A stretch of 64,000 nucleotides of DNA from Aquabacter cavernae (GTDB taxonomy: Bacteria > Pseudomonadota > Alphaproteobacteria > Rhizobiales > Xanthobacteraceae). Shown here one piece after another: positions 15,551-63,834 of this stretch (positions are counted from its first letter, which is position 1; every line of letters begins with the position of its first letter). Made by a program: the position numbers and the translations under genes. Below the pieces are notes generated by a model that saw only the letters and a list, made by a program, of their open reading frames with translations, had not been told where the DNA came from and did no database searches. The stretch is from positions 230,599 to 294,598 of the forward strand of contig NZ_RWKV01000001.1 in the NCBI RefSeq assembly GCF_003993795.1. Reading direction: 5' to 3'.

Positions 15551-15766
15551 ATCGCCGCCATCCCTGAACAAGTTTGGAATATGGACGCCCGAGCGGGCGC
15601 CATTACCGAAGCCGAAGACGCTGGGGCTGATCTCGATCAGATCCGTGGCGCCGTCGGTCATACCCAGGCTTCCACCACGGCCCGCTATTCGCGCGGGGCG
15701 CTCGGGAAGAGCCGCAAGGTCGCCGAACTCCGCCAAGCCCATCGGGCCGGGCAGAACAAGGCGTAA
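15548..15766 (+). pseudogene. C-terminal fragment of a tyrosine (phage) integrase
   Basis: 72 residues. WNMDARAGAITEAEDAG followed by GHTQASTTARYSRG matches the catalytic end of a group of rhizobial phage integrases, with the second catalytic Arg region, the GHT box and the tyrosine. The N-terminal three quarters are absent, so it cannot be functional. It lies 84 bp left of the left attachment repeat and is a scar of an older integration. Confidence 0.65.
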
Positions 15767-15849
15767 ACAGCGATGGGGAACGTCATGAGGAACGTGGGGA
15801 ATGCGTGGTTCAACGGTAGGCCGATAAACCCTTGTTGAAGCTCGCGAAG

Positions 15850-15871
15850 TTGGAGCGGGCGATGGGAATCG
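15850..15871. repeat. left attachment site of element 1 (attL-like, tRNA-Gly 3' end)
   Basis: A 22-bp sequence (TTGGAGCGGGCGATGG plus six more bases) is repeated exactly and in the same orientation at 52344-52365. Read on the minus strand it is the 3' end of tRNA-Gly: part of the T arm, the CGCCCGC acceptor strand, discriminator T and CCA. Tyrosine integrases commonly use such sites. Confidence 0.72.
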
Positions 15872-50970: not shown

Positions 50971-52179
50971 TCATTCCGTCGGCGATCTTATTTTCAGTGC
51001 CCGAAAATCATCCAGCATGTCCGCCCAAGCCTGCATCATCGCGACGCGCTCCGGCCAGTAGGTGGCGCGGTTATAAGCGCGCCGCACGGCATTGGGCTCC
51101 ACATGCGCCAAGGCCGCTTCGATCACGTCCGGAGGGAAGCCGCGCTCGTTCAAGATCGAGCTCGCCGTGGCCCGGAAGCCGTGCGCCGTCATCTCATCTT
51201 GCGTGAAGCCCATGCGCCGAAGGGCGCTATTGAAGGCGTTCTCGCTCAACGCTTTCTTATGCGAGCGGATCGAGGGGAACACGAGTTCGCTGGTTCCCGT
51301 GATGGGGTAAAGGTCGTCGAGCACCTGTATCGCTTGGCGAGACAGCGGCACCAGATGCGGCCGGCGCATCTTCATCCGATGCTCCGGGATCGTCCATACC
51401 CCCTTCTCGAGGTCGATTTCCTTCCATCTTGCGCCGCGCACCTCTCCTGGCCGGCAGAAGGTCAGTGCGTTGAACAACAGCGCAGCGCGGACGGAGGGCC
51501 AGCCGGTATAGGTATCGATGGAGCACAGAAGGGCTCCAACGTCTTTTGGCTCGATGAGCGCGGCCCGATGCACCACCTTTGGAGGGCGAAGAGCGCCGCG
51601 TAGAGACGCTGTCGGGTCTGATTCCGCGCGCAAGGTCGAGATGGCAAGGCGGAACACGCTGCCGATGGTCGAGCGAAGGCTCCGGGCTGTCTCCAGCCTA
51701 CCGCTGCGCTCGACGCTCTGGAGAACACTCAGCACTTCCACAGGTGTGATGTGCGAGATTGGGCGATTGCCCAATGCCGGGCCGGCCAGTTTCTCGAGGA
51801 ACCATCGGTTCTTTGTCAATGTCGCCGGTGCGCAGCCCTTGGCGCTAAGTCTCTCGAGATACTCCGCCGCAATGAGACCGAAGGTGTTCTCGGCCGTCGC
51901 AGCCGCTTCGATCTTGGCCTTCTGCCGAACAACCGAGGGATCTTCGCCGTCCGCGAGGGCGCGTTTGGCTTCGTCGCGTTTTTGTCGGGCGTCGGCGAGG
52001 GAGATAGTGGGGTAAGGGCCGAAGGAGAGCTGTTTTGCCTTCCCCGCGAAGCGGTAGGCGAGGCGCCAGAGGCGGCTGCCGGAGGGGGTAACGAAGAGGA
52101 AAAGACCCCCGCCATCGAAAAGCTTATAGGCCTGTTCCTTCGGCTTGGCGTTTCGAATGGCGATGTCGGTGAGGGGCAT
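50971..52179 (-). CDS. int: P4-type tyrosine integrase
   Basis: 402 residues from ATG 52179. N-terminal arm-binding domain (PLTDIAIRNAKPKEQAYKLF) of the DUF4102 type, then the catalytic domain with Arg in LTFCRPGEVRGARW (near 241), HGFRATASSIL (near 333) and Tyr in RRAYNRATYW (near 370). All catalytic residues are present, so it should be active. It starts 165 bp from the attachment repeat and carries arm-type repeats upstream. It should catalyse integration of element 1 at tRNA-Gly, and excision with help from the AlpA-type gene. Confidence 0.92.
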   Translation of the reverse strand: MPLTDIAIRNAKPKEQAYKLFDGGGLFLFVTPSGSRLWRLAYRFAGKAKQLSFGPYPTISLADARQKRDEAKRALADGEDPSVVRQKAKIEAAATAENTFGLIAAEYLERLSAKGCAPATLTKNRWFLEKLAGPALGNRPISHITPVEVLSVLQSVERSGRLETARSLRSTIGSVFRLAISTLRAESDPTASLRGALRPPKVVHRAALIEPKDVGALLCSIDTYTGWPSVRAALLFNALTFCRPGEVRGARWKEIDLEKGVWTIPEHRMKMRRPHLVPLSRQAIQVLDDLYPITGTSELVFPSIRSHKKALSENAFNSALRRMGFTQDEMTAHGFRATASSILNERGFPPDVIEAALAHVEPNAVRRAYNRATYWPERVAMMQAWADMLDDFRALKIRSPTE

Positions 52180-52212
52180 GTGTAGGCATCTCAAATCGGC
52201 CCGAAGCCGCGA

Positions 52213-52232: not shown

Positions 52233-52343
52233 AATTTCTGAGATGCAACGGCAGGCCATGCGCGCGTGTGAGGCTCTGGGAGACGCTCAATTCATTGATT
52301 TTCCAGAGAAATGAGATTTTCTGAGATGCCCTGAGGCAAGAAA

Positions 52344-52389
52344 TTGGAGCGGGCGATGGGAATCGAACCCACGACATACAGCTTGGGAA
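52344..52389 (-). repeat. right attachment site: 3' half of tRNA-Gly(CCC)
   Basis: On the minus strand, 52389-52345 reads from the anticodon loop TTCCCAA through GCTGT, the T arm GTGGGTTCGATTCCCAT, the acceptor CGCCCGC, T and CCA. That is the last 45 bases of a tRNA-Gly. The 5' half is missing and unrelated DNA begins at 52390. The first 22 bases equal the left repeat (15850-15871). The break in the anticodon loop is where many tyrosine integrases cross over, so 52390 marks the start of a second element. Confidence 0.75.
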
Positions 52390-52452: not shown

Positions 52453-52686
52453 ATGGGATTGCGCGGGATTAAGCGGGATAAGGCGGGACGCGGCAAACAG
52501 CGAGCGAAGGCAAGGCGTGATACGTCAGGACTCTCCTACGCAGTTTATGATGGTCACGTCCATCTGGGGACCGTTCTAGGACGACGTGCTGGCGGCTTCG
52601 ACGCGCGCTCCGCAAGTGGTGGTCGCCTTGGCCATTTCGATTCGATCAAGGCGGCGGCCGATTGCGTTGGCCGAGGTGGCCAATGA
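52453..52686 (+). CDS. small hypothetical protein of element 2
   Basis: 77 residues from ATG 52453, chosen because AAGGAGA lies six bases before it; an in-frame ATG at 52429 lacks a site. Basic N-terminus, then GLSYAVYDGHVHLGTVLGRR, then FDSIKAAADCVGRGG. Such short proteins often open phage lysogeny or replication modules. Its stop overlaps the next start (ATGA). Confidence 0.55.
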   Translation: MGLRGIKRDKAGRGKQRAKARRDTSGLSYAVYDGHVHLGTVLGRRAGGFDARSASGGRLGHFDSIKAAADCVGRGGQ

Positions 52687-53429
52687 GCGTCGTCTCGGCC
52701 GTGCACGTCATGCGAAACCGCGTTGATGCGGCCAGCGTGAAGGATCTGGATCTCGTCGCCCGTGATATGTGGCGGGCGCTGACACGAGGAGAAATCTCCG
52801 ACGAGGAGGCCGCGGAGATCGATGCCCAGATCAGCGGTCGGCGCGAGAAGCACGCCTACTCACCCGTTCCAAATCGTCTTGTCCTGAGCAGATTCAAGCC
52901 TCGGCAGCGGCAGCGGTCGCCTGACCGGCAGGCGTCGCGCGACCGGCGGCGACGCCTGGGCGGTTCCAGTGTTCTGCCCGATAGCCTGCGCCATCATTAC
53001 ACCGAGGGGCAGCGCGCCGTTCTCTGCATCGTGGCAGGGGAGATCAAGCACCACGGCATCTGTGATCTCCCGATCGACAAGATAGCGGCGCTCGCAGGTG
53101 TGTGCCGGACTACGGTGCAGACGACGCTCCATGAGGCGCGGCGGCTCGGCCACATCAGGATCACTCACAGGCCGCGGCGCGGCCAGAAGAGCCTCCCGAA
53201 CCTCGTTTCGATTGTCTCGACGGCTTGGCTCGCCTGGTTGAAGCGTGGCCCCTCAGCTCACCGGCCGACAGGGTCCAGTTTGCTTTCGCCGGTCAAAAAA
53301 GTGAGCCCCACGAAGAGCATAGAGGGCCTTCAAGAAAGGGCATTGAGATCGACGAATGCGCTCCAGGCACGGCAAGGAACGCTGGGGTTGGGGACAGATC
53401 CGCGTCGTGGAGGGCTGCAGCCTGAATGA
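52683..53429 (+). CDS. helix-turn-helix protein (replication-initiator-like)
   Basis: 248 residues from ATG 52683, overlapping the previous stop. The middle (residues 118-165) is a winged helix: LPIDKIAALAGVCRTTVQTT, then LHEARRLGHIRITHRPRRG. The Arg-rich stretch at about 70-85 may bind DNA. The C-terminal 60 residues are of low complexity. Comparable proteins in rhizobial prophages are annotated as helix-turn-helix or replication proteins. It precedes the head genes. Confidence 0.65.
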   Translation: MSVVSAVHVMRNRVDAASVKDLDLVARDMWRALTRGEISDEEAAEIDAQISGRREKHAYSPVPNRLVLSRFKPRQRQRSPDRQASRDRRRRLGGSSVLPDSLRHHYTEGQRAVLCIVAGEIKHHGICDLPIDKIAALAGVCRTTVQTTLHEARRLGHIRITHRPRRGQKSLPNLVSIVSTAWLAWLKRGPSAHRPTGSSLLSPVKKVSPTKSIEGLQERALRSTNALQARQGTLGLGTDPRRGGLQPE

Positions 53430-53648
53430 GATCGCTTTCGAGGGGTTCGCTGCCCTCAAATACCGCCCAAACGCCTGGGATAGGGGGGGTGGTGCACGAC
53501 CTCGGGCCTCGCATCAGGACCGGTGAGGTCCCGCCCGTGCGTGATATGCACCATATGGTGTTTTTTCTGATGAAGGTCAAAAGGTTATTGGCTATTCGAT
53601 GTTTAGTCAAGTTCTTTTTGGCATAAATTGGCACAAGCATCCGTCTAG

Positions 53649-54875
53649 ATGCGGAGATTTACAAGGCGCATACAATTATGGATGCGCAACCCATTCAAAG
53701 TGCTACGCGGCTTCTTCGACACAAAGTCTCTGGCGCTGCCGGAGGCCGATCTTCTTGCGCTGTTTGGCTCAGGCTCCCAGACTGCCGCCGGTGTAGCCGT
53801 TGGCCCCGGCAATGCGCTCACCGTGCCGGCGGTTGCATGCGCCATACGTGTCATTTCCGAAGCGGTCGCGACCCTTGATGTGCGTGTCGTCCAACGCGGA
53901 GACGACGGCACGGAACACGACGTTCCCGATCATCCTGCCTGGGCCTTGCTGCGCGACGCTGCCAATGATTGGACGGACGCCTTCAGTTTCCTCCGTGACC
54001 TGACCGCTCAGGCGCTCATCTATGATGCTGGTGGGCTCGCATGGGTTAATCGCGTGGACGGGCGGCCTGTCGAGGTCATCCACTATCAGCCGAGCTACCT
54101 GACGGCGCAGGACGATGGCACGGGCACGGGTGCCTTCCGGTACACCCTGAACGGCCGGGATGTTCCGGCCGAAGATATCATTCACCTGAGGAGCCCCTTC
54201 GGCCGCTCTCCGCTCAGCCTCGCACGTGAGAGCATCGGGCTGGCCTTGACGTTGGATGCCCACGCGGCCCGGCTGTTCGGCAACGGTGCCCGGCCCTCCG
54301 GCGTTCTGTCGCTGAAGGAGCGGGTTACGCCCGATGCGATCAAGCGCATTCGCGATTCCTGGCAGCTCGCTCATGGCGGTGGAAAGTCCGGCGGCACGGC
54401 GATCGTGGAGGGAGGCGCCGAATACGCGCCCCTCACGATGTCATCCACCGACGCTCAATTCCTCGAGCTGACGCGGTTTCAGATTCTCCAGATCGCGCGT
54501 CATTTCCGTGTGCCCGTGACGATGCTCCAGGATCTGGAGCGAGCCACCTGGAGCAACATGGAACAGGCTGGTCAGGAGTTCCTCGTCTATTGCCTTGAGC
54601 CGTGGCTGCGCGCCCTTGAGGGATGCCTCCGGCGTGCATTGTTCACAGCGGATGAATTCCCTTCTCACCGAGTGGTTTTTGATCGCGATGACCTCACGCG
54701 CGCCGACATTGGAGCGCGTGCGACGGCTTACAGTTCGCTCATCGCGAGCGGCGTGCTGAACGCCAATGAGGCCCGGGCCTGGGAGGGACTGCCAGCCCGA
54801 GAGGGCGGCGATGCCTTTGGCAACCCCTTCACATCTACGCCTACCGGGGCCGCCACGGTGCAGGGAGGCGCCTGA
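53649..54875 (+). CDS. HK97-family phage portal protein
   Basis: 408 residues. AVACAIRVISEAVATLDVRV, AFSFLRDLTAQALIYDAGG and HFRVPVTMLQDLERATWSNM followed by EQ are characteristic of HK97 gp3-type portals. The dodecamer sits at one capsid vertex and passes DNA in with the terminase. An ATG at 53682 in the same frame is a possible alternative start. The stop overlaps the protease gene by one base. Confidence 0.92.
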   Translation: MRRFTRRIQLWMRNPFKVLRGFFDTKSLALPEADLLALFGSGSQTAAGVAVGPGNALTVPAVACAIRVISEAVATLDVRVVQRGDDGTEHDVPDHPAWALLRDAANDWTDAFSFLRDLTAQALIYDAGGLAWVNRVDGRPVEVIHYQPSYLTAQDDGTGTGAFRYTLNGRDVPAEDIIHLRSPFGRSPLSLARESIGLALTLDAHAARLFGNGARPSGVLSLKERVTPDAIKRIRDSWQLAHGGGKSGGTAIVEGGAEYAPLTMSSTDAQFLELTRFQILQIARHFRVPVTMLQDLERATWSNMEQAGQEFLVYCLEPWLRALEGCLRRALFTADEFPSHRVVFDRDDLTRADIGARATAYSSLIASGVLNANEARAWEGLPAREGGDAFGNPFTSTPTGAATVQGGA

Positions 54876-55378
54876 TGGATCGCGTGTTCATCGAGACCAA
54901 GATCATGGTGGACGATGCGGGCGCCATCGAGGGGCTTGCGTGGCCGTTCGGCACTCCTGACCGTATCGGCGACGTGATCGAGAAGGGTGCGTTTGCCGGC
55001 GCCCGCCTGCCCCTGCCCATGCTCTTTGGACACGATCCGAATGACCCCGTGGGCGCCTGGAGCGAGGCCTTGGAAGAGGCGGACGGCCTGCGTCTCAAAG
55101 GGCGCCTGCTGGTTGCGGAGGTCGCCAGGGCGCGCGAGGTCCGGGCGCTCGTCCAGGCAGGCGCCGTGCGCGGGCTCTCTATTGGTTTCCTCACGAAGAA
55201 AGCCACGCCCCGGAAGGGCGGCGGCCGGACCATCTCCGCGCTCGACCTGGTCGAATGCTCGCTGGTCAGCGTCCCCATGCATCCCGGCGCCCGCATCACG
55301 GCCGCCAAATCCGCCACGGCGGCGCTTGCCATCGCCGGGGCTCTTCACCGCGCCGCTATGGCGATCAGCACGAGGTAA
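54875..55378 (+). CDS. HK97-family prohead protease
   Basis: 167 residues. IEGLAWPFGTPDRIGDVIEK, PMLFGHDPNDPVG (catalytic His) and VRGLSIGF (catalytic Ser) match the HK97 prohead protease family. It trims the capsid protein during assembly. It is coupled to the portal gene by a one-base overlap and lies three bases before the capsid gene. Confidence 0.92.
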   Translation: MDRVFIETKIMVDDAGAIEGLAWPFGTPDRIGDVIEKGAFAGARLPLPMLFGHDPNDPVGAWSEALEEADGLRLKGRLLVAEVARAREVRALVQAGAVRGLSIGFLTKKATPRKGGGRTISALDLVECSLVSVPMHPGARITAAKSATAALAIAGALHRAAMAISTR

Positions 55379-55381
55379 GCC

Positions 55382-56539
55382 ATGTTCCACGATGCGAAGG
55401 CGGTGCTCGGCGCCGTCGAGTTCAAGGGCGAGGAAGACGATCCCGCCGCCGTCGTCACGAAGGCGCTGGACGCCTTCAAGGGCGAGGTGATCGGCCGCCT
55501 CGACAAGGTGGAGGAAAAGGCTGGCGCCGCGGACAAGATCGCCCTGCGCCTGGACAAGCTGGAGGCGAAGCTCAACCGGCCGGCCGGCACGAAGGACGAT
55601 CCGGCGGAGCCGAGCGAAGAGCGCAAGGCGTTCGGCACCTACCTGCGCCGTGGGCGCGAGACGCCCGAGGCCGATCTGAAGGCGCTCACCGTCTCCAACG
55701 ACTCCCAGGGCGGCTATCTCGCCCCTGCGGAGATGAGCACGGAGTTCGTCCGCGACCTGGTGGAGTTCTCTCCCATCCGCTCCGTGGCCAGCGTGCGCGC
55801 CACCGGCTCGCCCTCGGTGAAGTATCCCAAGCGCACGGGCATCACCAACGCCCGCTGGGTCGGCGAGACCGAGGAGCGCTCCGAGAGCGAGCCCAGCTTT
55901 GGGCAGATCGAGATTCCGGTGCGCGAGGTGGCCACCTATGTGGACATCTCCAACCAACTCCTCGCGGACAGCGGCGGCATCGCCGAAGCTGAGGTGCGGC
56001 TCGCCCTGGCCGAAGACTTCGGCCAGAAGGAAGGGGCGGCCTTCGTGGACGGGGACGGCGTGAAGGAGCCCATGGGGCTCCTGACAGATCCCGGTGTCGA
56101 ATTCACGCTGAACGGCCACGCCACCAACCTCTCCGCCGACGCGCTCATCAGCCTGATGTACGCGCTGCCGTCCGCCTACCGGAACCGTGGCTCCTGGCTG
56201 CTCAACGGCACCACGCTCGCCACCATCCGCAAGCTCAAGGACGGGCAGAACAACTACCTCTGGCAGCCGTCCTTCCAGGCCGGGCAGCCGGAGACCATCC
56301 TCGGCCGCCCGGTGGTGGAGGCCGTGGACATGCCTGACGTGTCCTCGGGCGCCTTCCCGATCATGTTCGGTGACTTCGCCACCGGCTACCGGATCGTGGA
56401 CCGCCTGGCGCTGTCCATCCTGGTGAACCCCTATTCCCTCGCCACCACGGGGCAGACCCGCATCCATGCGACCCGCCGCGTCGGCGCGGGCGTGGTGCAG
56501 GCGCGCGCGCTGCGCAAGCTCAAGATGGTGACGAGCTGA
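55382..56539 (+). CDS. HK97-family major capsid protein
   Basis: 385 residues. The first 85 residues are a charged helical scaffold-like delta domain (VVTKALDAFKGEVIGRLDKV and after) removed by the protease. The HK97 fold follows: GGYLAPAEMSTEFVRDLVEF, then PIRSVAS, and PVREVATYVDISNQLLADS. It builds the icosahedral shell. Confidence 0.93.
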   Translation: MFHDAKAVLGAVEFKGEEDDPAAVVTKALDAFKGEVIGRLDKVEEKAGAADKIALRLDKLEAKLNRPAGTKDDPAEPSEERKAFGTYLRRGRETPEADLKALTVSNDSQGGYLAPAEMSTEFVRDLVEFSPIRSVASVRATGSPSVKYPKRTGITNARWVGETEERSESEPSFGQIEIPVREVATYVDISNQLLADSGGIAEAEVRLALAEDFGQKEGAAFVDGDGVKEPMGLLTDPGVEFTLNGHATNLSADALISLMYALPSAYRNRGSWLLNGTTLATIRKLKDGQNNYLWQPSFQAGQPETILGRPVVEAVDMPDVSSGAFPIMFGDFATGYRIVDRLALSILVNPYSLATTGQTRIHATRRVGAGVVQARALRKLKMVTS

Positions 56540-56552
56540 GGAGATACGACCC

Positions 56553-56984
56553 ATGCGTGACCTTCACAGCAACATCGGCGTCATCGAGGCCATTCCGCCC
56601 GCGGTCTACGATGCGGACAACAGCCCGGCGGCCATCGACCTCCTCGGCTTCGACGCCGCCGAAATCGTCATCCATGTGGGGATCGGCGGCATCACGTTCA
56701 CCGGGACGAACAAGATCGAGTTCGTGCTCTCCCACAGCGACGATGAGAGCGCTTACGCTCCCGTCACCGTGTCCGATCTTCTTGGTGTCGCGTCGGTGAC
56801 GAACGGCATCGTCCTGGCCTTCAAGACGGCGCATGCCGCCGCCACGCTTCATCGCCTCGGCTACATCGGCGGCCGGCGCTACCTGAAGCTCCTGGCGGAC
56901 TTCGGCGGCACCCACGGCACCGGCACGCCGCTTTCGGCGACGGTCATCAAGGGCCACGCCGCCAGCCGGCCCGTCGCAGCTTAG
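56553..56984 (+). CDS. hypothetical head-associated protein
   Basis: 143 residues, 13 bp after the capsid gene. FDAAEIVIHVGIGGITFTGT and RRYLKLLADFGGTHGTGTPL are beta-rich and typical of short proteins after capsid genes that may decorate the shell. Exact role unknown. Confidence 0.65.
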   Translation: MRDLHSNIGVIEAIPPAVYDADNSPAAIDLLGFDAAEIVIHVGIGGITFTGTNKIEFVLSHSDDESAYAPVTVSDLLGVASVTNGIVLAFKTAHAAATLHRLGYIGGRRYLKLLADFGGTHGTGTPLSATVIKGHAASRPVAA

Positions 56985-57132
56985 GGCGCCTGTCCTTTGA
57001 GGGGGCGTCGCGGTCCCCCCAACACCGGAAAGTTCGCCTGCCTGGCGCCCGCGGTGCAAGCCGTTTGTGGGGTTCAAGGCGAACGAGATCGCGGGCACCG
57101 GCGGATGTTTCCTAGTCCGCGAAGGGCTTAAC

Positions 57133-57159
57133 GGGGAGGCGGGCCGTGCTCGCCTCCCC
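57133..57159. terminator. hairpin before the HNH-kinase gene
   Basis: Nine-base arms GGGGAGGCG and CGCCTCCCC around a nine-base loop, in the 194-bp gap after 56984. No T run follows, so it may be an attenuator or processing site. Confidence 0.5.
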
Positions 57160-57178
57160 ACACTCCAGGTGAAAGAGC

Positions 57179-58006
57179 ATGCCTGTTCGTGCCCCAAGGA
57201 TTTGCCCCTGCGGCTACCGCATCGCCAGCGGCGAGCGATGCCCATGCGAGCGCAAGCGCGCGGCGGCTCGGAATGCTCGGGCGGATGCCGCCCGCCCCAG
57301 CGCGCGGCAGCGAGGCTATGACACCCGCTGGGACAAGGCGCGTGCTGGGTATCTGCGGTCACATCCCATGTGCGTCCGGTGCCATGCGCCGGCCACGGTG
57401 GTTGACCACATCGCGCCTCACCGCGGCGACCAAGCGCTTTTCTGGGACAAGGGAAACTGGCAACCGCTTTGCAAGCCTTGCCACGACCGAGCGAAGCAGG
57501 GCGAGGAAAAGCGGAGCGCGAGGGGTGGCGTACTGGCTCATCCCTTCCTTCGGCCGTCACGCGTCCCTGTCACCCTTGTCTGTGGTCCGCCGGGTTCCGG
57601 AAAGAGTACCTATGTCGAGAAGCATCGGCGTCCAGGCGATATCGTCATCGACTTGGACCTGATCAAGGCAAAGCTCTTCCACACCACCAGCCACCAGGCC
57701 CCTCGTAGCGCCGAGGCGACACGGCAAGCTCTGTTGGAGCGCAACCAGATCCTGACGGGGCTCGCTGACGATCACCTGCATGAGCATGTGTGGTTTATCG
57801 TTTCAGCTCCCGAGCAGGCAGAGCGCGACCTGTGGCAGCGAAAGCTGCGCAATGCCCGTTTGGTCGTGATGGATACACCGCTGGAGGAGTGCCTACGCCG
57901 AATCCGGGCCGATGTAAGCCGCGAGGGACAGCGGGACTGGATGGAGGATCTGGTGCACCAATGGTTCGCGCGGGCGCGGCGCGAGAAGGATCTCCGCAAT
58001 GTCTGA
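57179..58006 (+). CDS. HNH endonuclease fused to a P-loop kinase-like domain
   Basis: 275 residues. Residues 45-110 form an HNH domain: CVRC (65-68), DH (76-77), N93 and CKPCH (98-102), with all key residues. Residues 130-275 form a P-loop kinase domain: Walker A GPPGSGKST (136-144), IDLDLIK (about 157-163) and arginines in the C-terminal part, as in polynucleotide kinase-like or zeta-toxin-like proteins. HNH proteins beside terminases help cut cos ends in HK97-like phages. The fused kinase might repair or modify 5' ends, but that is inference. It overlaps the connector gene by 8 bp. Confidence 0.78.
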   Translation: MPVRAPRICPCGYRIASGERCPCERKRAAARNARADAARPSARQRGYDTRWDKARAGYLRSHPMCVRCHAPATVVDHIAPHRGDQALFWDKGNWQPLCKPCHDRAKQGEEKRSARGGVLAHPFLRPSRVPVTLVCGPPGSGKSTYVEKHRRPGDIVIDLDLIKAKLFHTTSHQAPRSAEATRQALLERNQILTGLADDHLHEHVWFIVSAPEQAERDLWQRKLRNARLVVMDTPLEECLRRIRADVSREGQRDWMEDLVHQWFARARREKDLRNV

Positions 58007-58310
58007 CAGCCTCAATGCCACGGACGTGGTGAGCCTTGATGATCTGAAGCGCCATCTTCGGGTGGATGGGTCGTATGAGGATTCGACCCTTGAGCAGATG
58101 CTTGAGGCCGCCCTGCGGCATGTGGAGGCCTGGGTCGGGCCGCTCGCCACCTTCGAAGGTGAGGTTCCTGATGACATCGGGATGGCGATGAAGGTGCTCG
58201 TCGGCCACTGGTTCACAGAAGGGCGGGAAGCTGCACTCCCGGAACCTCTCCTCGAGATCCCGTTCGGATTTCGTGAGCTCATCACTCCCTATCGCAAGTG
58301 GGAGTTCTGA
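57999..58310 (+). CDS. head-tail connector protein (HK97 gp6-like)
   Basis: 103 residues. VSLDDLKRHLRVDGSYEDST followed by LEQMLEAALRHVEAWVG is the standard start of gp6-like connectors, which form a ring below the portal and make the joint for a tail. It starts inside the end of the HNH-kinase gene. Confidence 0.85.
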   Translation: MSDSLNATDVVSLDDLKRHLRVDGSYEDSTLEQMLEAALRHVEAWVGPLATFEGEVPDDIGMAMKVLVGHWFTEGREAALPEPLLEIPFGFRELITPYRKWEF

Positions 58311-58312
58311 TC

Positions 58313-58735
58313 ATGCGTGGCCATAAAGCCGAAATATCTCCGACCTGGGAGGCGGTGGGTGAGGACGTTCCCGCTGCGCCGGATTGGCTGACCGACGATG
58401 CCCTGGCCGAATGGGAGCGCACGCTGCCGATCCTGATGAAGGAGCGGCGTACACTGACCCTTGCGGATCTCGCGAGCTTCGCGAATTACTGCACAGCCGT
58501 GGGGCAGGTTGCCGAGGCGGCCCGTATTCTCAAGGACGGCGGGCTGATCTTCATGGGGCCGAGCGGTCCCAAGCGGCATCCGGCTGTGGTCATTCGGAGC
58601 GACGGGCTCACGCAGGCGCGGCAGCTTGCTGCCGAACTCGGCCTCACGCCGGCAAGCCGCGGGCGACCTGGTATTCGGGAGGGGGCTGATAGCGATCTGG
58701 GGCCCCTTTTCTCTGGGGGACTTGGCCTTGATTGA
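58313..58735 (+). CDS. phage terminase small subunit, P27 family
   Basis: 140 residues from ATG 58313, two bases after the connector gene. APDWLTDDALAEWERTLPIL, LADLASFANYC and VIRSDGLTQARQLAAELGLT are typical of P27-type small terminases that recognise the packaging site and regulate the large subunit. The C-terminus overlaps the large-subunit gene. Confidence 0.85.
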   Translation: MRGHKAEISPTWEAVGEDVPAAPDWLTDDALAEWERTLPILMKERRTLTLADLASFANYCTAVGQVAEAARILKDGGLIFMGPSGPKRHPAVVIRSDGLTQARQLAAELGLTPASRGRPGIREGADSDLGPLFSGGLGLD

Positions 58736-60299
58736 GCAGAGTACCCCTGACCCTCTTGGATATGGTCAGCGGGCCGTCGATTTCCTCCGAGCGCTCCGTC
58801 ACCCGAAAAGCGGATTGCCGGGACGGGCATTCCAACTGGACCCTTGGCAGGAGCGGATCGTGCGCCGGATTTACGGCCCACGCCACGAGAATGGCTTGCG
58901 GATCGTGAAGTCCGTGGTGCTACTGCTGCCCCGAGGCAATCGAAAGACGAGCCTCGCCGCTGCTCTCGCACTACTTCATACCTTTGGTCCCGAGCGTCTG
59001 CCGGGCGGCGAGGTCATTTCCGCCGCTTCAGACCGCAAGCAGGCCCGCATTGCGTTTGATGAAGCGGTCGGCATCACTCAAACGACACCGGGGCTGAAGC
59101 AGCGTGTTTCGGTCCTGGAGTATCGGAATCGCGTCGTCAATTCGAAGTATCGCGTCTTTTACGAGTCCATCTCCAGTGACGCGGGCACACAGCATGGCCG
59201 CACGCCGGCATTCGTCCTGGCGGACGAGCTCCACGCCTGGAAGCGACGAGACCTCTGGGACGTGCTGCGCTCCGGCCTCGTGAAGACCGCCGGCTCCTTG
59301 CTGGTCGTTGCCACCACTGCCGGTCGCGGGCAGGAGAACATCGCTTTCGACATTGTGGACTATGCGCGGAAGGTGGCGCGCGGAGAGATCTCAGATCCCT
59401 CGATGTTGCCCATTCTCTATGAAGCGGATCGCGATTGTGACTGGACGGACGAGGCCGTATGGCACGCGGTCAATCCGGGCCTCGCCCATGGGTATCCCGA
59501 CATCGAAGGTCTGCGTCAGCTCGCCCGTGAGGCGCGCCATCGCCCGGGAGATCGGGAGGCATTTCGTCAGTTGAACCTCAATGTCTGGCTCGACCACAGC
59601 GCCGATCCGTTCGTGGATATGGCCATCTATGACGAGGGTGCTGCGCCAGTCAGCCTGGATGATCTAGCTGGCGAGCCGTGTTGGCTCGGCGTCGATCTCT
59701 CCAGCAACGGCGATCTGACCTGTGTCGCGGCGGCCTGGCGTGACGGCGACGATGGCTATTTCGTCCATCCTTGGTTCTTCTGCCCGAAGGACAATCTGCG
59801 CCTCAGGTCGGAGCGCGATGGCGTTCCGTATGTCACATGGGCCGAACAGGGCTACATCGAGCCCACCCCTGGAAATGTCGTGGACTTCCGGCATGTGGAG
59901 ACCACCATCCGCGACTTATGCGACCGCTTCGATGTGCGTGAGATAGCCTTCGATCCGCACCTCGCGCGCAACATGATGAACACTCTCGCCGAAGACGGCC
60001 TGCCGGCAGTGGAGATGCGCCAGGGCGTGGCCACCATGGCGCCAGCCGTGAAGGAACTGGAGCGGGCGATTGTCGGCCGGCGGCTGATGCACGGCGGCCA
60101 TCCTGTGCTGCGCTGGAACTTCGACAATATCGCTGTCCACACTGATAGCGCTGGCAATGCCGTGTTCCACAAAGGGCGAAGCCGGGACCGTATCGATGGC
60201 GCCGTGGCTTGCGCTATGGCAGTCGCTCGTGCGGCGGCCGGCTCCCTCCCGTCGATCTATGACAGCGATCAGTGGAAGCCAGAGATGATGGTGATGTAA
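58722..60299 (+). CDS. phage terminase large subunit
   Basis: About 525 residues; the likely start is a TTG at 58722 or 58728 after GGGGGAC, as no ATG is suitable and the longer frame repeats small-subunit DNA. ATPase motifs are LLLPRGNRKTSLAAA (Walker A) and FVLADELHAW (Walker B). Nuclease acidic residues lie in LGVDLSSNGDLT, DPHLARNMM and DRIDGAVA. It packages DNA into the prohead. It comes after the capsid genes, whereas HK97-like phages place terminase first. Confidence 0.92.
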   Translation: MALIEQSTPDPLGYGQRAVDFLRALRHPKSGLPGRAFQLDPWQERIVRRIYGPRHENGLRIVKSVVLLLPRGNRKTSLAAALALLHTFGPERLPGGEVISAASDRKQARIAFDEAVGITQTTPGLKQRVSVLEYRNRVVNSKYRVFYESISSDAGTQHGRTPAFVLADELHAWKRRDLWDVLRSGLVKTAGSLLVVATTAGRGQENIAFDIVDYARKVARGEISDPSMLPILYEADRDCDWTDEAVWHAVNPGLAHGYPDIEGLRQLAREARHRPGDREAFRQLNLNVWLDHSADPFVDMAIYDEGAAPVSLDDLAGEPCWLGVDLSSNGDLTCVAAAWRDGDDGYFVHPWFFCPKDNLRLRSERDGVPYVTWAEQGYIEPTPGNVVDFRHVETTIRDLCDRFDVREIAFDPHLARNMMNTLAEDGLPAVEMRQGVATMAPAVKELERAIVGRRLMHGGHPVLRWNFDNIAVHTDSAGNAVFHKGRSRDRIDGAVACAMAVARAAAGSLPSIYDSDQWKPEMMVM

Positions 60300-60322: not shown

Positions 60323-61966
60323 TTATTCATCATTTCTCTTATGCTGAAAATAAGCAGATGTATCTTCGACTTTTTTCTTTAATTGATTCAATAAAGCTCG
60401 CTCTGCTATTGAGTATGATGGGTAGTAAACCTCAACCATTGGCTTTGGTGCGCCGCCGGTCCACTTTTGCGCTTCGCCCGTAGAGTATTTTCGTTTTCCT
60501 TTTTCAAATAAATCACGATATCGATACGGGGATACGCCAATAAATCCGTCAAATCCAACGCGATTAATCTGTGGCTTGGAATCTGTATAAATTGCATCAC
60601 CATGCAAATCTTTCGCATAGCTCTTTGGGTATGGCTCTAAATATACAACACGAGATATGCCGGCGGCGACAATGTGTTTTGCACACATATGGCATGGAAA
60701 AGTGGTGCAATATAGCGTGCTGTCTTTTATGGGGATCCCCAGCCTAGCAGCGTCGCTAATGGCGGACATTTCTGCATGTATAATTCTACCAAACTCAAGT
60801 ATATCCATCATTTTAGATTTTCTAACACTGCGATCAGACGTGTCCTGAAGTAAATTTTGACAAATTTCGTATGTATTATTTATTTCAGATAGATTTTCAG
60901 ATAAATGACCAGATTCTTTTAATCTATCTATCACGTCAACAAGTAATTCGATCTTCCGACGCTCATTTGGGTCGTATCCGTCCACGAAATCGCGCCTGTC
61001 TATAGTATCTTTCGTCCAGTACGTGCCGCCACCGGCCTTCGGAACCTCATTGCATCCCAATGACGCAACCTCACCCGAGGGGCGAAATATTGCCGCTCCG
61101 ACTTGCCTTGAAAGGTCAGATGACCTTAGCGAGGCTGACTTTGCCATGTACATCCCATATTCGTCCCGAGTGGGTGTAATTTCATTATTTCCAAAAAGTA
61201 ATTTTATGAATCTTCGGATTGTATCGGAGCATTCCGAAGTTGAACTTGCGTCGATAAATACATCTCCGAGCGGAAAAGCATCACGTACGTTCTGCCCATG
61301 TGTGTCCAGTGTCTCTTTAGAATCCTGGGCGACCAATCGATTGGCGCGGTCAACTAGTTCTATTTCTGCGACTAGGCCCCCGCAAGATCTGCTTTCTTCT
61401 TCCCGAATGCGTCTAAGTCGAGACTCTTCCGACGCAGTTGCGGAAATAAGAATAAACTGCCGTCCATATATGCTTCGCAAAACCGTTATTTCTTCAGGCC
61501 TCTTAAATTGCCTTATGATGTAAGCCTGATTTGGAAGGGGCTCTGCTTTATTTCGCTCGTCGTCATTGGAGGCATCGTGCCGTTCTCCATCTGATCCAGC
61601 AGGGGGCTGCGCCATGCCTTGTTTCTGCTGAGCATCTTGAATTTTCGCTTTCCATCTCTTGGCTCGGAATTCCCGGATCGCGCTGATAGCCAATGCCGCA
61701 AGGGCGTGGTCGCCCGCCTGAGCTCTAACGTCATTTGCGAATGCAATTCGATCTTTAATTGATTGGATATATGGGCTTTTAGCCACGGTCCTTTCGGGGA
61801 AAGCATCCTGCATCAAGGCGGTGAGACGAAATAGCTGCGTCTCGTACTGCATCTCTGTTAGCGCCTCCGCCAGGAGATCACTGACCAAATTCAGGTCGAC
61901 TCCGATGGGTGCGACAATTCCAAAAATCAACTCAGGCGCGGGTGTGGATTGCAACGGTTGGTTCAT
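60323..61966 (-). CDS. anti-phage dCTP deaminase
   Basis: 547 residues. The C-terminal deaminase carries HAEMSAISDA (near 397, zinc His and catalytic Glu) and PCHMCAKHIVAAG (near 425, zinc Cys pair). The N-terminal half starts ELIFGIVAPIGVDLNLVSDL, a degenerate kinase-like P-loop region found in this defence family. These enzymes destroy dCTP on infection and starve the phage. The gene is AT-rich compared with the head genes, opposite in strand and convergent with the large terminase gene 23 bp away, a sign of separate acquisition. Confidence 0.85.
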   Translation of the reverse strand: MNQPLQSTPAPELIFGIVAPIGVDLNLVSDLLAEALTEMQYETQLFRLTALMQDAFPERTVAKSPYIQSIKDRIAFANDVRAQAGDHALAALAISAIREFRAKRWKAKIQDAQQKQGMAQPPAGSDGERHDASNDDERNKAEPLPNQAYIIRQFKRPEEITVLRSIYGRQFILISATASEESRLRRIREEESRSCGGLVAEIELVDRANRLVAQDSKETLDTHGQNVRDAFPLGDVFIDASSTSECSDTIRRFIKLLFGNNEITPTRDEYGMYMAKSASLRSSDLSRQVGAAIFRPSGEVASLGCNEVPKAGGGTYWTKDTIDRRDFVDGYDPNERRKIELLVDVIDRLKESGHLSENLSEINNTYEICQNLLQDTSDRSVRKSKMMDILEFGRIIHAEMSAISDAARLGIPIKDSTLYCTTFPCHMCAKHIVAAGISRVVYLEPYPKSYAKDLHGDAIYTDSKPQINRVGFDGFIGVSPYRYRDLFEKGKRKYSTGEAQKWTGGAPKPMVEVYYPSYSIAERALLNQLKKKVEDTSAYFQHKRNDE

Positions 61967-63300: not shown

Positions 63301-63834
63301 ATGAGCCAAGACGATGACCGGCCGCCTCGGCCCCCTTTAACCGTCGTCGCTCAGAACGACGATCGCGCGATCCGACTGGAGGGCGTCAAGCAGGCGCTGG
63401 AGGCGGATTTGAGGGCGCTCGCCGCTAACGTGATGCGTGTCGCGCGAGGGGCTGGGAAGGCTTACGAGATCGGGCGGCAGTGCAAGGCCGTCGCCGGCCG
63501 ATTTGAGGAGTACAGATCGGTAGCAGGTCATTACCCGCCCACTCACGAAATAGATGCGGCAATTGCGATCCGGAGGGAGATCCCGAGCGCGGCCTCGGAT
63601 CGAGAGTATGAACGGAGTCGGGGAATTGACACCGTCATGAGGGGTGCACTGCAAGCCGCCGCTTCTCATCTTGTGGGGCAGCGGACGCAGGAGGCGGCAG
63701 GGGAGACGCAGCTACTCGAAGGTGTCCGAATTCTGGAGAAGCTCCGAGAGGAAAACCGGAGGGAGGCTGTGTCTCGAAAAGAGAGAGAAGATGCCTTTGA
63801 AAAATGGAAGTCTGAGCGTGATCGCAAGAAGTAG
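63301..63834 (+). CDS. hypothetical protein
   Basis: 177 residues from ATG 63301, after GGAG. A Pro-rich start is followed by long helices (VKQALEADLRALAANVMRVA; the C-terminal 40 residues are charged coiled coil). No family recognised. It is convergent with the partial gene at the right edge. Confidence 0.55.
   Translation: MSQDDDRPPRPPLTVVAQNDDRAIRLEGVKQALEADLRALAANVMRVARGAGKAYEIGRQCKAVAGRFEEYRSVAGHYPPTHEIDAAIAIRREIPSAASDREYERSRGIDTVMRGALQAAASHLVGQRTQEAAGETQLLEGVRILEKLREENRREAVSRKEREDAFEKWKSERDRKK

Follow-up and report, generated by a model that had tools for sequence, protein, structure and literature searches.

A probable capsid-forming phage satellite at a tRNA-Gly site of Aquabacter cavernae, with an apparent Mu-like prophage nested in it

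Is a compact set of phage head and packaging genes that stands without tail genes a mobile element in its own right, or what is left of a prophage? The question is raised by a stretch of 64,000 nucleotides of Aquabacter cavernae (hereafter the window, C2:230599-294598 of a 4.5-Mb genome), in which a sequence-only reading had seen a candidate capsid-forming satellite, comparable to the capsid-forming phage-inducible chromosomal islands (cf-PICIs). The present analysis supports this candidate: a conserved architecture without tail genes, bounded by attachment (att) repeats, recurs in other genomes, and the tail genes found on the right-hand side are explained by a Mu-like insert. We consider it very probable, from the sequence comparisons described here, that the locus is an integrated capsid-forming phage satellite of ~15.7 kb, and the element would most likely spread by borrowing tails from real phages.

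The element is bracketed by a perfect 50-bp direct repeat derived from tRNA-Gly(CCC) (coordinates are collected in Table 1). The tRNA-end pattern has a chance expectation of 0.00 occurrences in the window, in which neither ARAGORN nor Rfam detects a tRNA, and the usual logic of tRNA integration places the element between the two tRNA-Gly(CCC) copies. Without the prophage nested in it the element measures ~15.7 kb, its left portion being C2:282938-298498, and it forms a discrete att-bounded island with an integrase. This integrase, P0004 (L004:11158-12891), lies near the right end; it matches phrog_1 (1.7e-17), above the PHROG threshold and under the Pfam cutoff (21.4 vs 27.1 bits). Another integrase, at 50,971-52,194, was rejected as the element's own: it stands on the far side of the left att copy and is part of a different element to the left.

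The portal, protease, capsid, connector, HNH, small (TerS) and large (TerL) terminase genes called by the sequence-only reading are all present with profile matches, as is the helix–turn–helix (HTH) protein that it noted upstream, and every frame of the head module (52,683-60,299) is open. The element thus has its own capsid, protease, portal and connector as well as its own TerS, TerL and HNH protein. We infer the HTH-type protein to be a regulator or replication initiator. The HNH–kinase fusion is a probable packaging accessory; the HNH family has a median length of 132 aa in relatives, compared with 275 aa here. The TerL coordinates are those of the longest frame, and alignment with relatives puts the true start probably near 58,710-58,740. 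The 143-aa protein has a confidently predicted structure (mean pLDDT 89.6) and weak fold matches (TM-score by query 0.30-0.55) among the 50 Protein Data Bank (PDB) rows listed, which range from capsid cement to neck, tail-tip, baseplate and unrelated lectin-like chains, with no tail-tube chain among them; that it might be a capsid cement or decoration protein is a guess from the predicted model.

Tail, tape-measure and lysis families were not found in the element's open reading frames with Pfam, nor in the part of them also searched with PHROGs and NCBIfam, some very short frames and the Xre-like and xis-like genes being unscanned. Profiles of the relatives' tape-measure, neck, tail-terminator and tail-assembly proteins had no match in the element's six frames, in a search that did match the portal, protease, capsid, HNH, connector, TerS, TerL, 143-aa, HTH, Xre and integrase proteins. 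Two tape-measure PHROGs searched against the whole genome had no match in C2:282938-298498; their matches are at C2:309263-312091, inside the nested phage, and on C17 and C1. The element is accordingly free of recognised tail genes, as is a capsid-forming PICI, and is not a complete temperate phage, in which head, tail and lysis genes stand in one element. The earlier observation that no tail, tape-measure or lysis gene precedes 60,323 therefore holds, but the defence gene at that position, taken to be unrelated, lies inside the element as cargo.

The sequence-only reading had named tail, tape-measure and lysis genes further along the same element as evidence that would overturn it. Annotation up to the right-hand tRNA reveals such genes beyond 64,000, a tape measure, tail fibre, endolysin, TerL, TerS, portal and protease–capsid fusion lying between P0004 and the tRNA, but they sit in a Mu-like prophage bounded by a 5-bp duplication. 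They were rejected as the element's own, since this prophage has its own TerL, portal, capsid and transposase, the last matching phrog_310 (5.8e-93) and presumably MuA-like. The 5-bp repeat ACTCC flanks the nested prophage, and an uninterrupted integrase 3' end with its att flank, 94-98% identical to the right-hand one, is kept at window 15,559-15,871. Aligned to this uninterrupted copy, the left junction departs after ...GAACTCC; at the right junction the match starts again with ACTCCGCC..., the 5 bp being duplicated. The junction alignment delimits the insert as C2:298499-341666 and leaves ~15.7 kb for the satellite alone. Judged by its genes and junctions, the right-hand 43.2-kb unit is a separate Mu-like prophage. 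That the head module and the right-hand tail genes make up one composite phage of ~59 kb is hardly credible: both do lie between the same 50-bp repeats, but the right-hand phage has its own TerL, portal, protease–capsid fusion, tape measure, endolysin and transposase, the 5-bp duplication falls within the integrase gene, and the uninterrupted 3' end of that gene exists elsewhere.

Relatives were gathered in two overlapping sets (L088, for example, corresponds to G059 and L089 to G075). The first came from a TerL search (E <= 1e-60) of 199 genomes, 30 of which, A. cavernae included, have TerL relatives, at 39 places (23 genomes at >=53% identity); of the 38 places in other genomes, 35 were taken. 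Six loci were dropped before repeats were counted: L043, which ends at a contig end, and L041, L042, L045, L046 and L047, which are 33-36% identical and have other gene orders where placed. In 19 of the 29 loci kept (20 extended to 35-40 kb and nine of 10-20 kb), the module lies between direct repeats of 13-67 bp linked to a tRNA, with spans of 15.8-19.0 kb; 15 of these 19 were seen in stretches of 35-40 kb and four in 20 kb. The sites are tRNAs for Leu, Ser, Asn, Ala, Gln, Glu, Arg, Lys, Pro and Gly. Three of the repeats are short, 13-14 bp (G049a, G103 and G094c); for G103 the pair spanning 17.2 kb was used and a 16-bp pair spanning 28.4 kb is also present, and some loci carry further pairs of 12-13 bp.

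The second set, from a scan of genome contigs, comprises the best 80 of 90 relatives. The nearest among these belong to Azorhizobium, Xanthobacter and Ancylobacter (TerL identity up to 84%), and the hosts, where named, are alphaproteobacteria, a few being labelled only 'Proteobacteria bacterium'. Portal, capsid and terL are all present in 72 of the 80 loci, at least one being missing in the other eight. A tRNA-linked repeat of >=13 bp surrounds the module in 31 loci, spanning 15.5-18.9 kb, in stretches of at most 21.6 kb, so that longer spans could not show. Six of these 31 have no tape measure (L088, L091, L096, L105, L108 and L114). They span 15.5-16.9 kb, come from Azorhizobium, Ancylobacter and Martelella and have the same gene order where the genes were detected, the connector profile having no match in L088, L091 and L114. 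The best match to the A. cavernae element is L096, from Ancylobacter mangrovi, with the same integrase type, tRNA-Gly(CCC), a 53-bp repeat, 16.5 kb and the order HTH gene, head genes, cargo, Xre gene, xis-like gene, integrase. The tape-measure profile phrog_24 matches elsewhere in the genomes of L088, L089, L091, L096, L105, L108 and L114 but nowhere at their satellite coordinates (L107, L132 and L158 lay outside this check). Several such elements may share a genome, as L097, L105 and L108 do in Martelella lutilitoris GH2-6 and L092 and L094 in Xanthobacteraceae bacterium 501b. Among 50,697 phage records, 2,272 match the TerL, all at <60% identity and at no more than 39.6% among the 20 matches listed.

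Because att-bounded elements without a tape measure recur across genera, the architecture appears to be conserved rather than the deletion of one strain, and a one-off deletion is strongly argued against by these sequences; the earlier suggestion that related prophages might reveal a simple deletion was not borne out. The remaining form of this idea is a siphophage prophage that decayed, losing its tail and lysis genes and keeping its head genes intact by chance. Prophages commonly end as head-first remnants, and most relatives keep a tape measure, so that tail genes were probably present in an ancestor. Nevertheless, we regard decay as improbable, given the recurrence just described, the varied other genes that occupy the region after TerL in relatives, and the state of the head genes, all of which are open and seven of which, of eight, have ratios of non-synonymous to synonymous polymorphism (pN/pS) of 0.16-0.61. 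In comparisons with up to four relatives, in many of which synonymous sites are near saturation, this ratio was 0.16-0.27 for TerL, 0.27-0.46 for the protease, 0.39-0.51 for the capsid, 0.31-0.55 for the portal, 0.29-0.55 for TerS, 0.44-0.53 for the connector and 0.49-0.61 for the HTH gene; the gene of the 143-aa protein is the exception (0.46-1.04).

Several observations weigh against the satellite interpretation. No clean empty site was found in the stretches fetched from three congeners: tRNA-Gly(CCC) is present in all three, the left host flank does not adjoin it within these stretches, and in one a related integrase end lies beside it. Ten of the 29 relatives of the first set have no counted tRNA-linked repeat (G075, G097, G053b, G128, G041, G044, G181, G074, G051 and G039; G128 has only a 12-bp pair, spanning 23.9 kb). 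Tail genes are not absent from the family at large: of the 72 loci in which portal, capsid and terL are all present, 59 have a tape measure; the other 13 consist of 12 without a tape-measure profile match, among them L143, which has neck genes, and one incomplete locus. Of 272 relatives in IMG/VR 80 loci were considered, 38 of them 14-18 kb long, and one of the ten from contigs >20 kb has a tail-tip-type PF13550 match: L174, on a 65-kb contig, where the match is in a 1,097-aa frame ~9 kb past TerL, beyond an integrase frame, in what may be a neighbouring prophage or the same element. No primase or other replication gene was found among the proteins scanned, so that the primase typical of cf-PICIs is missing from this set. 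Finally, interruption of the integrase at its 3' end may have left this copy inactive. Loss of function in the satellite, with the integrase C-terminus altered by the Mu-like insertion and the unit enlarged to ~59 kb, is compatible with the satellite interpretation, and we lean towards it. As read from the letters, the insertion point is 3' of the putative catalytic tyrosine, and other residues take the place of the final 11 of the protein, but the putative catalytic residues remain, and the insert might be lost or an integrase might act in trans. As excision would carry ~59 kb, this copy is probably held in place for as long as the Mu-like prophage stays.

The relatives with a tape measure deserve separate consideration. 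Frames of 550-930 aa after TerL form one family in 12 of the 19 att-bounded elements of the first set, and three proteins of such elements (two of that family and a third), scanned singly, match tape-measure PHROGs (1.5e-36, 2.8e-19 and 1.6e-103). Other proteins of these sister elements match head closure, neck, tail terminator and tail assembly PHROGs, and one 110-aa family matches a tail-tube PHROG. No tail-tip, baseplate or fibre family is present in the best 25 of 137 and 25 of 40 families listed for 133 frames; the 19 elements contain 148 non-module frames of >=150 aa, and the 15 that resembled antisense frames of head genes were left out of the alignment. In the second set such sisters include L093, L097-L104, L106, L109-L113 and L115-L124, among others, at 15.6-18.9 kb where att repeats were found, and most have neck and tail terminator genes and no recognised tail tip. 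L092 was rejected as a head-only element, its 648-aa frame after TerL being a divergent tape measure. In a quick TerL tree of 73 rows the head-only and tape-measure types interleave: the head-only state changes 10 times, compared with a mean of 12.2 in shuffled data and a value as low in 24 of 500 shuffles, and >=6 changes are forced by starred branches, L092 being mislabelled as head-only in these counts. This pattern suggests that the tape measure may have been gained or lost repeatedly. We tentatively propose, at somewhat less than even confidence, an alphaproteobacterial lineage of capsid-forming satellites of 15.5-19 kb in which the link to the borrowed tail is a swappable module: most would bring neck proteins, a tail terminator and a tape measure, which could dictate the length of the stolen tail, while others, the A. 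cavernae element among them, would bring none of these and would fill the same slot after TerL with anti-phage defence genes.

A gene transfer agent (GTA), or another domesticated particle that packages random host DNA, is a further way in which a small head cluster without a lysis gene may arise. Alphaproteobacteria commonly have GTAs, and this genome has a separate GTA-like cluster on C1, but the integrase, the att repeats, the many tRNA sites and the patchy distribution mark a mobile element, and the host-borne cluster without integrase or att sites expected of a GTA is not what is seen; we therefore judge a GTA very improbable. The C1 cluster (~1,415,000-1,430,200, L006/L007) is a second set of portal, protease, capsid, connector, tail terminator and short tape measure genes with a 1,314-aa frame, which we take to be of GTA type from gene order only. 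On C17 a tape-measure frame of 837 aa (C17:127667-130081) possibly belongs to another tail-bearing prophage. Together with the nested phage, these two loci are conceivable sources of tails in this genome.

The slot after TerL holds the cargo. Its first gene encodes an anti-phage dCTP deaminase (NF041025), presumably of the type named AvcD/DCD, which scores above the curated cutoff and keeps its deaminase motifs (HAE and PCxxC); compared with the known enzyme, the gene is here satellite cargo. Its G+C content is 46% and that of the head module 64.5%, a difference that acquisition of the cargo would explain. The stretch between TerL and the integrase also contains frames of 91, 104, 156, 165, 177 and 234 aa, which have no Pfam match, the 165-aa frame having no PHROGs match and the 177- and 234-aa frames no NCBIfam match. 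For an Stl/Xre-type repressor and an AlpA/Xis-type activator, the candidates, located in the same stretch, are the Xre-like gene and a 63-aa HTH/xis-like frame, both recognised by family, position and look only. The region after TerL varies in gene content across relatives: an Azorhizobium relative has an 840-aa subtilase there (PF00082), L108 of M. lutilitoris a frame of ~1,020 aa that matches SIR2_2 (the match was assigned to this frame from its coordinates, strand and length), and G076 a 512-aa protein with a sub-cutoff STAND match. The PADLOC IetS model matches one, not specified, of the 133 frames in the relatives' non-module alignment. A DUF4435/PARIS-type pair in L114 was not supported (0 of 6 genomes). 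Defence-like cargo is thus supported in some relatives, not in all.

Table 1. Positions of the element's features (window coordinates, unless a contig or locus is given)
Feature	Position	Strand	Remarks
Left att copy	52340..52389	-	50 bp: 3' 45 bp of tRNA-Gly(CCC) plus 5 bp beyond
HTH-type DNA-binding protein	52683..53429	+	phrog_15967; homologues in the same place in relatives
HK97-type portal	53649..54875	+	PF04860, 2.5e-90
S78-type head maturation protease	54875..55378	+	profile matches
HK97-fold major capsid protein	55382..56539	+	TIGR01554, 4.1e-112
143-aa conserved beta-rich protein	56553..56984	+	belongs to the conserved gene set
HNH endonuclease fused to P-loop kinase-like domain, 275 aa	57179..58006	+	profile matches
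gp6-like head-tail connector	57999..58310	+	profile matches
Terminase small subunit, P27 family	58298..58735	+	profile matches
Terminase large subunit TerL	58626..60299	+	longest frame
Anti-phage dCTP deaminase	60323..61966	-	NF041025, 446.8 vs cutoff 400 bits
177-aa open frame in cargo/regulatory region	63301..63834	+	
Xre-like gene	L004:8938-9252	-	family F13; by family, position and look only
Nested prophage	C2:298499-341666 (L004:12500 to L012:15667)		43.2 kb; in integrase 3' end, 5-bp target duplication
Whole tRNA-Gly(CCC), right partner	C2:341791-341865 (window-equivalent 111,193-111,267)		~59 kb rightward, outside window

To the left, the window contains an apparently separate 36-kb element (15,872-52,340), flanked by two partial tRNA-Gly copies; it has an integrase of its own (50,971-52,194) as well as DUF3732 and AAA genes, and we read the arrangement as tandem accretion at one tRNA. 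The fragment at 15,559-15,871 is a remnant of another satellite's integrase 3' end and att flank and ends in a 26-bp tRNA-end fragment, which implies that satellites entered this tRNA site more than once.

How does this element compare with known satellites? Known cf-PICIs are near 15 kb, a size similar to that of the element here. The element has the order portal, protease, capsid, (143-aa protein), HNH, connector, TerS, TerL, then a cargo slot. According to PMC10690885, cf-PICIs make their own heads, do their own packaging and take tails from a helper. With them the element shares its own capsid, maturation protease, portal, head-tail connector, TerS, TerL and HNH protein, the lack of tails and the form of an integrated island (PMC10690885, PMC13230959 and PMC11389934); it differs by having no recognised primase and an alphaproteobacterial host, and perhaps in its gene order with the cargo slot. 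Judged by gene content, it may work like a capsid-forming PICI. The Streptomyces phage satellites MulchRoom and MiniFlayer also combine a satellite-encoded capsid and packaging with no recognised primase, and their description presents these two capsid-making satellites without primase as contrasting with all satellites known before (PMC10690885). In MulchRoom these are accompanied by an integrase and an HTH regulator, and the helper is credited with supplying its tail (PMC10690885). Both differ from the element in their virulent helpers, direct terminal repeats and actinomycetotal hosts, and are likened to it by description, not sequence (PMC10690885). The cf-PISP satellite-plasmid of Vibrio is likewise a 15.8-kb capsid-forming satellite without tails, but is reported to have plasmid maintenance genes and no integrase (PMC13230959). 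Our literature search, which did not cover the founding cf-PICI paper, found no description of this alphaproteobacterial satellite lineage among the titles and abstract openings listed, and we do not claim its absence from print.

These properties suggest a model in which growth of a helper phage would derepress the satellite, which would then excise. Its replication would be carried out by helper or host enzymes, as no primase was recognised. Satellite DNA would be packaged by the satellite's own terminase into its own heads, which would be joined through the satellite connector to tails made by the helper, and the deaminase might protect the host against competing phages.

The locus shows how a satellite may be taken for an ordinary prophage once a phage has inserted itself there. 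If our interpretation is true, satellites with their own heads would be a common and little-noticed part of alphaproteobacterial genomes, and defence genes would travel by way of them. Sister elements that have a tape measure would raise the question whether a satellite can fix the length of a tail that is otherwise encoded elsewhere.

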